Part shown: positions 14,935 through 22,300 of the stretch, one piece after another
Position numbering within the stretch: the stretch's first letter is position 1
How the letters are laid out: each line of letters begins with the position of its first letter
Notes under the pieces: model-generated
Databases searched by the model: none
What the model was told of the DNA's origin: nothing
Seen by the model: the letters and a program-made list of their open reading frames with translations, nothing else
Position numbers and translations under genes: made by a program
NCBI GenBank assembly: GCA_030950485.1
Contig: JAUZRK010000004.1
Span: 1 to 40,953 of the forward strand
Source of the DNA: Candidatus Dojkabacteria bacterium
GTDB lineage: Bacteria; Patescibacteriota; Dojkabacteria; J137
Reading direction: 5' to 3'
Length of the DNA: 40,953 bases

Positions 14935-14960
14935 AAAGAGGCAGATAAATCTGCCTCTTT
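14935..14960. terminator. Bidirectional intrinsic terminator
   Basis: AAAGAGGCAGA and TCTGCCTCTTT form a perfect 11-bp stem with a TAAA loop between the convergent NUDIX and bcp genes. The A/T ends of the stem supply a short T tract in both directions. Confidence 0.9.
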
Positions 14961-19695: not shown

Positions 19696-20967
19696 TTAAA
19701 TTTTGATATTTAATAACTCATCCCACGAGGTTGTATATCTACTTGATATTCTATCCGATCTAACCCTCCATCTTTCTTTATTTATTTCTTTTCCGCTGCG
19801 TACTAATTCAGTTCCAAATTTACTATTTATAAAATCTATGTTTTGCATAAGAGTACTCTTTTGATCCTCGCTACTTTTATTATAACTATGTAACATAGAG
19901 TATTGTATTGAATTCTCGTCTCGTATCCCTGTTATATAAATCCCTGATTTTTTATATCTATAACCATTTTTATATATTAACTTTAGCGCTTCCAGTCCCT
20001 TTTTTATAAAATCAGGAGAGTAGTTACTATAGTTATCTAAAGTCATTGTAGTTGCATTTGAATATGGCTTATCTTCTCCATATTTGCCTGTTCTTATATA
20101 AACAGTAATAAAATTAGCTACAGACTTTTGTTTTCTAAGCTTCCTCAGTGCATTAGAGGTATAGCTTGCAACTGCCTGCTCTAGCTCTTCTATTTTAGTT
20201 ATTGGAGTTCCGAAAGATCTAGTATAGGATATACCTTTTCTAGGCGTTGGATTATTATCTAGTTTAAAACAAGATACGCCATTAATTTCTAGATAGGTTC
20301 TTTCAACCGTAACACTATACTTTTTTCTAATAAAAGCTCTATCGCTATATTTAAAATCTTTAACATTATAAATCCCATCTCCCCTAAGTTTCTCACTTGT
20401 TCTATATCCGATCCCCCATACTTCAGATATATCTAGCTTATTTAATAGATCATCTAACTCAGCTTCTCCAAGGATTGAAAGATCTGTTGTAGAATTAAAT
20501 CTTCGTTGAAGCTTTCCTATCTCATTTGCAATTTTTGCTAATGTTTTAGTTCTAGCAATACCGACAGAAACAGGTAGTCCGATATTTTTCTTTACTGTAT
20601 CTACTATGGAATCTCCTAACGAAGTATATTTATCTATATCATCATCCAGCCTCAAAAAAGCCTCATCTATAGAATATAATTCTATATCGTCAACAAAACT
20701 CATTAAAGTTTTCATAACTCTATTTGATAAGTCTCCATAAAGAATAAAGTTAGATGAAAATATATTTACATTCTTGCTTTCTAAAAGATCTTTAATTTTA
20801 AAGTAAGGAACTCCCATAGCCACCCCCATATCTTTTACTTCCTGAGATCTTGCAACTACACAACCATCATTATTAGATAAAACAATAGTAGGTTTATTCC
20901 ATAGTTTTGGATTAAAGACCCTCTCGCAAGACACAAAGAAATTGTTACAGTCTACTAATGCGTACAG
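19696..20967 (-). CDS. umuC: Translesion DNA polymerase V catalytic subunit
   Basis: A Y-family polymerase of about 423 residues. The first in-frame conventional start (GTG 20934, MSCERVF) would delete the essential YALVDCNNFF segment that binds metal and dNTP. That segment is in frame upstream, and the only plausible initiator is CTG at 20967 (LYALVDCNNFFVSCERVF). SIDEAFLRLD carries the catalytic acidic residues, VSVGIARTKTLAKIANEIGK follows, and the little-finger domain and UmuC C terminus (KSTLMQNIDFINSKFG) are present. It lies 83 bp downstream of umuD on the same strand, presumably an operon. It copies past lesions as part of UmuD'2C. The CTG start, or an ATG to CTG change, is the one oddity. 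Confidence 0.9.
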   Translation of the reverse strand: MYALVDCNNFFVSCERVFNPKLWNKPTIVLSNNDGCVVARSQEVKDMGVAMGVPYFKIKDLLESKNVNIFSSNFILYGDLSNRVMKTLMSFVDDIELYSIDEAFLRLDDDIDKYTSLGDSIVDTVKKNIGLPVSVGIARTKTLAKIANEIGKLQRRFNSTTDLSILGEAELDDLLNKLDISEVWGIGYRTSEKLRGDGIYNVKDFKYSDRAFIRKKYSVTVERTYLEINGVSCFKLDNNPTPRKGISYTRSFGTPITKIEELEQAVASYTSNALRKLRKQKSVANFITVYIRTGKYGEDKPYSNATTMTLDNYSNYSPDFIKKGLEALKLIYKNGYRYKKSGIYITGIRDENSIQYSMLHSYNKSSEDQKSTLMQNIDFINSKFGTELVRSGKEINKERWRVRSDRISSRYTTSWDELLNIKI

Positions 20968-20993
20968 TGAAAGTTATAAGTAATAAGTAAAAA
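20968..20993 (-). repeat. TTACTTA heptads before the umuC start
   Basis: On the minus strand TTACTTA is repeated and followed by TAACTTT, directly before the CTG proposed as umuC start. It resembles the TACTTTT heptads before ackA and after the VanW gene. Confidence 0.4.
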
Positions 20994-20998
20994 AACTC

Positions 20999-21038
20999 TC
21001 TCCTCCATTTGGGAAAGGTGCCCTTTAGGGCTAGGAGA
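20999..21038. repeat. Nested hairpin between umuD and umuC
   Basis: An outer 6-bp stem TCTCCT/AGGAGA (20999-21004, 21033-21038) encloses an inner hairpin AAAGG-TGC-CCTTT (21014-21026). The sequence is GC-richer than its surroundings and looks like a REP-type element dropped into the operon. It could also attenuate umuC relative to umuD. Confidence 0.45.
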
Positions 21039-21050
21039 CTTCACTAGCTT

Positions 21051-21443
21051 CTATCCCTTTATCTTTTTTATCACCCCAGTAACTACTCCCCAAACACTAA
21101 ACTCATTGAACTCTTTCACATTTATAATTTCGTAATTATCATTTTCAGGCTTTAAATACATTTCTTCTCCTGATTTAAAAAATCTTTTTACTGTATATTC
21201 ACTATCTAATACAGCTAAGACAATATCGCTATTTACTGGCTCTAGTGATTTATCTATGACTAGAATATCTCCATTATGTATCCCCGCTTTTATCATCGAG
21301 TCCCCGCTAACTCTAACAAAGAAAGTAGCAGCTGGATGTTTTACTAGATATTCATTTATATCTAAAGTTTTATCTATGTAATCAGTAGCTGGGGAAGGAA
21401 ATCCCGCAGGAACTGAGTCGAGGAATAGTTGTATTGATGACAT
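21051..21443 (-). CDS. umuD: UmuD-like S24 self-cleaving SOS protein
   Basis: A 130-residue S24-family protein from ATG 21443; a TTG nine bases earlier is less likely. SVPAGFPSPATDYID contains the Ala-Gly self-cleavage site. VSGDSMIKAGI holds the catalytic Ser and EYTVKRFF the catalytic Lys. There is no N-terminal DNA-binding domain, so this is UmuD rather than LexA. RecA-filament-stimulated cleavage would convert it to UmuD', the partner of UmuC. It is the first gene of the umuDC pair. The promoter upstream has a perfect TATAAT bracketed by direct repeats, probably the binding site of an SOS repressor encoded elsewhere. Confidence 0.92.
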   Translation of the reverse strand: MSSIQLFLDSVPAGFPSPATDYIDKTLDINEYLVKHPAATFFVRVSGDSMIKAGIHNGDILVIDKSLEPVNSDIVLAVLDSEYTVKRFFKSGEEMYLKPENDNYEIINVKEFNEFSVWGVVTGVIKKIKG

Positions 21444-21462
21444 AATATACAAATCTGGTTTA

Positions 21463-21558: not shown

Positions 21559-22179
21559 ATGGAGAGAAAATTATTCTTAAATAAATATAGAGTAGATACT
21601 ATCAGGCTTAAAAATCACGATTATAGAGAAGAAGGCACTTACTTCATTACCATATGTATAGCTAAACGAAAGAGATACTTCGGCAAAGTGATCGATAATC
21701 AAATGCAATTAACTAGAATAGGAGAGATTGCATATAAAAACTGGCTTAACATACCTAACCATTTTAAGAATGTGCAATTAGATGAATTCATTATAATGCC
21801 TGATCATATGCATGGAATTATTATAATATTGCCAGAGGAAATAATGAAAGAGGAAAGAAATAATCTCAAGTTACAGACGTTGCATGCAACGTCTCCACAG
21901 CATGCAATACCTCCACTGCATGCGATATCTCCACAAACAGAAAAATCTATAGATCCCAAAATATCTCAATATTTCTCAGATATAACACCCAAACCTAGAT
22001 CATTATCAACAATACTAAGATCATATAAATCAGCCTGCACAAGAGAAATCAATAAAATAAATCCTGAAATTAAATTCAAGTGGCAGACTAGATTCTATGA
22101 ACATATTATAAGAAACGAAAGGGCATTTACTAATATTAAGAATTATATTAAAAACAATCCTTCAAATTGGAAAAAATAG
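21559..22179 (+). mobile_element. REP-associated tyrosine transposase (RAYT, Y1 HUH family)
   Basis: A 206-residue single-strand transposase/endonuclease of the TnpA-REP type. YREEGTYFITICIAKRKRYFG is the N-terminal strand pair. IIMPDHMHGIIII holds the HxH metal site (HUH motif). KWQTRFYEHIIRNERAFTNIKNYI contains the catalytic Tyr, and NNPSNW closes the family motif. Such proteins cut and mobilise REP palindromes. An unusual linker (residues about 107-126: QTLHATSPQHAIPPLHAISP) is encoded by an 18-bp repeat that includes the element's own palindrome. Further palindromes lie downstream (22204-22300). It could be active or domesticated; no terminal element boundaries are obvious. Confidence 0.9.
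21875..21935 (+). repeat. REP palindrome and 18-bp triplication inside the RAYT gene
   Basis: AGACGTTGCATGCAACGTCT is a perfect 20-bp palindrome at 21875-21894. From 21882 an 18-bp unit is repeated three times (21882-21899, 21900-21917, 21918-21935), each beginning GCATGC and ending CTCCAC plus two bases, and encoding the hexapeptides HATSPQ, HAIPPL and HAISPQ in frame. Confidence 0.85.
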
Positions 22180-22203
22180 AATAGAAAAAATAAAAGAAGC
22201 TCC

Positions 22204-22300
22204 AGTTACAGACGTTGCATGCAACGTCTTAAGTTTATGCGTTGCATTCCAACATCTCAAGGTTTATGCTTTGCAATACAACGCCTCAACGTTTATATTA
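22204..22300 (+). repeat. Cluster of three REP-like units after the RAYT gene
   Basis: The first unit repeats the same 20-bp palindrome (22210-22229); with 6 bp of upstream flank it is 26 bp identical to the copy inside the transposase gene. Two degenerate units follow at 27-29 bp spacing (GTTGCATTCCAACATCTCAA, then TTTGCAATACAACGCCTCAA), each followed by a GTTTAT-type end. This is a REP array next to its likely transposase. Confidence 0.75.

Follow-up and report, generated by a model that had tools for sequence, protein, structure and literature searches.

How does a perfect palindrome come to lie inside the coding sequence of the transposase presumed to act on it? The question is raised by a locus in the window, i.e. 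the whole stretch of 40,953 nucleotides of Candidatus Dojkabacteria DNA analysed here. In this window, the perfect 20-bp palindrome AGACGTTGCATGCAACGTCT lies within a RAYT (TnpAREP) gene, at positions 21875-21894, and the same palindrome is present at 22210-22229, starting 31 bp past the RAYT stop codon, both with 0 mismatches. A reading made from the sequence alone (hereafter the sequence-only reading) had reported a 26-bp identity including this palindrome, in the gene and again downstream, and this was confirmed. When the window was shuffled 100 times with dinucleotides preserved, zero matches to AGACGTTGCATGCAACGTCT were obtained, with up to 3 mismatches allowed. The features of the locus are the following.

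21559..22179, plus strand: RAYT / TnpAREP gene, 206 aa, subclass-2.4 type (ORF; Pfam Y1_Tnp; Foldseek 4ER8)
21805..21813, plus strand: codons of the HUH motif (H83-M84-H85), invariant across the alignment of 14 relatives
21856..21996, plus strand: linker from the HUH strand to helix alphaC, residues 100-146, predicted disordered
21871..21898, no strand assigned: in-gene REP, TTAC-AGACGTTGCATGCAACGTCT-CCAC, whose minus strand reads as a GTGG foot followed by the hairpin
21883..21936, plus strand: three 18-bp units encoding HATSPQ, HAIPPL and HAISPQ, as read from the sequence
22144..22146, plus strand: codon of the catalytic Tyr, Y196, motif YIKNNP, invariant in the alignment; YIxNNP is the subclass 2.4 motif
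22206..22233, no strand assigned: 3'-flanking copy, TTAC-AGACGTTGCATGCAACGTCT-TAAG, neither strand having a GT[AG]G foot
22240..22295, plus strand: two degenerate palindrome-like units 3' of the flanking copy, seen in the sequence and partly within the computed fold

Next to the RAYT gene, a UmuC-like polymerase gene and an S24 (UmuD/LexA-like) gene adjoin each other at 19696-21452 on the minus strand, and a transaldolase-like gene is found on its other side. Elsewhere in the window, at 14935-14960, the perfect hairpin AAAGAGGCAGATAAATCTGCCTCTTT, with 12-bp arms, is possibly a terminator.

The RAYT protein matched Pfam Y1_Tnp with a score of 29.5 (cut-off 23), and the NCBIfam model NF047646 (REP_Tyr_transpos) with an E-value of 1.9e-16 and 60.3 bits, a score below the curated cut-off of 80. 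It has the HUH motif and the single catalytic Tyr with its Y---NP signature (H83, H85, Y196 and N200). In the alignment of 14 relatives, these four residues and Q176 were invariant, and W175 nearly so. The AlphaFold2 model had a mean pLDDT of 72.5, and a pLDDT below 50 over residues 100-146, the linker bearing the repeats. Foldseek ranked 4ER8, the E. coli TnpAREP with a bound REP hairpin, first in the PDB for this model (E=7.9e-6), and 4ER8 was also the sole PDB match by sequence profile at the thresholds used. The HUH-Tyr fold is common to the two proteins, but the available text of Quentin et al. (2018, PMC6006769) places the E. coli enzyme in subclass 2.2, unlike the window RAYT. In that same text, subclass 2.4 (RAYT group 4 of Bertels et al.) is characterized by WQ, YIxNNP, a variable beta3:alphaC insertion and no C-terminal tail, as well as by a double-foot REP type and an in-frame REP between HuH and Y. 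The window RAYT has W175-Q176, YIKNNP, the linker at 100-146, and a protein end 5 residues past YIKNNP. With these motifs, a variable insertion between beta3 and alphaC and no tail, the window gene is a RAYT of the subclass-2.4 type, an assignment made by motifs and by our own profile, A1, and not by the profiles or tree of Quentin et al. Relative to that description, the window RAYT differs by its HUH motif, DHMH instead of NH[IFV]H, by the alteration of both REP feet, and by a genome without a dispersed REP family. Several relatives within the window gene's own profile do have NH[ILVF]H.

Both palindrome copies lie within a 37-bp block of 92% identity (21858-21894 and 22193-22229), of which 26 bp are identical. 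This block extends past the REP, as 10 of the 13 bases ahead of the common GTTAC/TTAC foot match by eye. Because the block is wider than the REP, the copies look like products of one segmental duplication more than of independent REP insertions. On its minus strand, the in-gene copy reads GTGG-AGACGTTGCATGCAACGTCT, with a canonical foot directly 5' of the hairpin, and no other hairpin of the window with a stem of at least 8 bp has such a canonical foot. On the plus strand, the GTAG foot is missing from both copies. As ssDNA, the in-gene stretch folded better than all shuffles on both strands, and the 3' stretch on the minus one. The in-gene REP and the units all lie between the HUH and the catalytic Tyr. 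The sequence-only reading had derived the three 18-bp units from the palindrome and placed their hexapeptides between these two motifs. The placement is correct, but of the three, unit 1 alone is part of the full palindrome, as its 3' half plus foot; the second and third are diverged, incomplete tandem repeats of that half and foot. The genome-wide count suggested by the same reading gave, by pattern searches, two copies in the 1.41-Mb, 92%-complete genome (G000); no third copy was found, not even when 3 mismatches to the 16-bp core were allowed. Two copies are fewer than the many dispersed copies expected of a REP. With one perfect copy downstream of the gene and just a short degenerate stretch upstream, the locus also falls short of the RAYT criterion of PMC2817692 (2010).

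The same hairpin was found as a REP in other genomes. The double-foot 28-mer GTAGAGACGTTGCATGCAACGTCTCTAC (GTAG-AGACGTTGCATGCAACGTCT-CTAC) has four dispersed extragenic copies in G122, another genome of the phylum, and one-base loop variants of the hairpin are present in G106 (5 copies), G104 and G134. The exact 28-mer also lies inside a RAYT remnant, L205, of G435. Relative to this canonical sequence, the window in-gene copy has 3 differences, all in the feet, and the 3' copy has 5, in the feet as well; the TTAC 5' foot is common to both. The nearest RAYT found, L139 of G106 (53.5% core identity over 114 columns), contains the one-base variant GTAGAGACGTTGCAATGCAACGTCTCTAC in the same linker, 14 residues after the HUH versus 21 in the window gene, and in a different reading frame (RRDVAMQRLY versus QTLHATS). 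Since its hairpin recurs with canonical feet elsewhere, the window palindrome is, by sequence, a REP, and the window gene contains what is probably a substrate of its own product. The self-recognition device imagined in the sequence-only reading would go further than this; genes containing their probable substrate are common in subclass 2.4 and already published.

RAYTs were gathered from 380 sampled genomes belonging to the phylum of the window, and also from other phyla; most genomes were metagenome assemblies, with uneven sampling. As most NF047646 matches within the phylum belonged to other classes of RAYT, profile A1 was built, which gave 89 subclass-2.4-like genes (scores of at least 100) and 53 other RAYTs (below 56). 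Two distant relatives were found in a plasmid collection and one in a phage collection. In-gene palindromes with arms of at least 8 were detected in 70 of the 89 subclass-2.4-like genes (79%), versus 10.4 expected under synonymous recoding, and with arms of at least 10 in 52 of the 89, versus 0.9; related genes being non-independent, these and kindred counts are frequencies, not numbers of independent events. Most in-gene palindromes are located 7-35 residues past the HUH. Far from all orthologues having the same linker without the palindrome, which would have refuted the sequence-only reading, most relatives have a palindrome there, usually unlike that of the window. Exact matches of at least 18 nt between a gene and its own flanks were found at about a fifth of the loci (19%), and at none when flanks were swapped between loci. 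Among the listed canonical GTAGAGACG REPs, 14 of 75 are inside RAYT genes totalling 15.5 kb, an enrichment biased upward, as such RAYTs guided the choice of genomes and pattern.

The position and number of these inserts vary. At least three insert sites are used: after the HUH, in the early loop (L124, L187), and in the alphaC-beta4 gap of Bacteroidota genes. When frames are anchored on the foot, plus-strand feet are distributed 33 : 14 : 0, the frame that reads TAG never being used. Unit number goes from 2 to 5 among closely related Bacteroidota genes, where, as in the window, partial copies come after a complete REP: in the alphaC-beta4 gap, RAYTs L009, L011-L016 and L018-L020 have 2-5 in-frame GELQFAPT-type repeats, of which the first forms a complete hairpin and the rest are partial. 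One of them, L019, has an extra repeat copy past the W-Q region, and its Tyr motif is missing. This second copy without a later YIxNP fits indiscriminate insertion, in which only loop insertions leave a working gene. A further arrangement was seen in L134, L159, L161, L166, L168 and L187, namely two inverted in-frame hairpins bounded by a GTAG foot and a CTAC foot at opposite ends, which is REPIN-like; L187 seemingly has two such inverted pairs.

The explanation that we consider quite likely is that the REP of the window RAYT, a GT[AG]G foot with a AGACGTTGC..GCAACGTCT hairpin, also lies inside its own subclass-2.4 type gene, and is tolerated in a disordered loop. We infer that the REP would have arrived at the DNA level, probably when this RAYT or a related one cut and joined ssDNA, and that it would have survived merely as a tolerated insert, owing to an in-frame landing in the disordered beta3-alphaC linker. 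The 3' half of the palindrome would later have undergone two in-frame tandem duplications, and a further copy of the REP-bearing segment lies just past the gene. Tolerance in a loop, one of the two options of the sequence-only reading, is supported by the canonical-footed hairpin elsewhere, the predicted disorder of the loop, the differing frames of relatives and the variable copy number. Some observations count against mere tolerance: no empty site was found among the close relatives of the window gene found here, plus-strand GTAG feet are missing from the window copies, and the 79% frequency, together with identical REPs in RAYTs just 53-58% identical, is more than would survive simple neutral decay if re-insertion were not frequent.

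The frequency and the shared REPs also speak for a selected self-target, where the REP would be kept since RAYT binding or nicking of its own gene or mRNA autoregulates, or links the enzyme to its substrate. The REPs shared at 53-58% RAYT identity are embedded in linkers that barely align, and over 57 genes the similarity of in-gene REPs follows RAYT identity (Mantel r=0.31, reached in 0 of 2000 permutations). Moreover, the minus strand of the window's in-gene copy offers a usable GTGG foot, and the copy forms a good ssDNA fold. However, repeated insertion of the cognate REP accounts equally well for this tracking. The palindrome is missing in about a fifth of the subclass-2.4-like genes, its position, frame, strand and number are all variable, and a single base change disrupts it in L024 relative to the 93%-identical L023. 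We therefore hold selection as a self-target to be unlikely.

Selection might also act on the linker peptide itself, e.g. as a binding tail, the palindrome being then a by-product of codons. The three hexapeptides do resemble each other, and frame 0 is commoner than frame 1 (33 vs 14), but synonymous recoding yields palindromes in 10 genes of 89, versus 70 in reality, the 3' copy is non-coding, and the linker peptides encoded by relatives are unrelated, which makes this very improbable. A function of the peptide was set aside as encoded peptides and frames differ among relatives. Finally, a local palindrome duplication or replication slippage independent of REPs, which the finding of only two copies in the genome and the duplicated block extending past the REP would suit, is hardly credible and is contradicted for the palindrome itself by the same hairpin being a REP in other genomes and lying within another RAYT remnant, slippage being likely for units 2 and 3 only.

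With the cognate REP tolerated in a loop as the preferred reading, the window case is a further example of a published habit of subclass 2.4, and no new phenomenon. In the available text of Quentin et al. (2018, PMC6006769), in-frame REPs inside tnpAREP genes, as a rule located between HuH and Y, are described as unique to this subclass, and it is proposed that they may affect TnpAREP activity little. In open-licence papers, our literature search for in-gene REPs, whether reported later or from Patescibacteria, gave nothing beyond that study. Intragenic REPs in other genes were described by Di Nocera et al. (2013, PMC3733652); these and the Rickettsia palindromic elements are likewise palindromic repeats tolerated in frame in coding sequences, but they occur in many unrelated genes, whereas the window REP lies in its own presumed transposase. 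What is new here, relative to the part of Quentin et al. available, is the synonymous-codon null for the frequency, the use of two frames and the tracking of RAYT relatedness. Also added are the growth by partial tandem copies, the altered feet, and palindromes inside the genes of two other RAYTs of this genome, which by score are of another class: L126 (G000:C1:86316-86349, 17-bp arms), with a related palindrome near the gene at 86780-86817, and L196 (G000:C10:48888-48927, 20-bp arms). The same genome has a RAYT remnant with an internal stop, L195 (G000:C18:43790-44008), and the hairpin GGGACAGGTTTCAAACCTGTCCC ahead of it.

In-gene REPs could be a selected cis element: by recognising the coding strand of its own gene, or the mRNA, the transposase would limit its expression and tie its specificity to its substrate. 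We regard this as unlikely, but if true it would explain both the frequency of about 80% and the co-variation of REP sequence with the protein. A RAYT from a phylum of small genomes joins a published oddity, and with the numbers added here, whether such a REP is a tolerated parasite or a self-target becomes a testable question.
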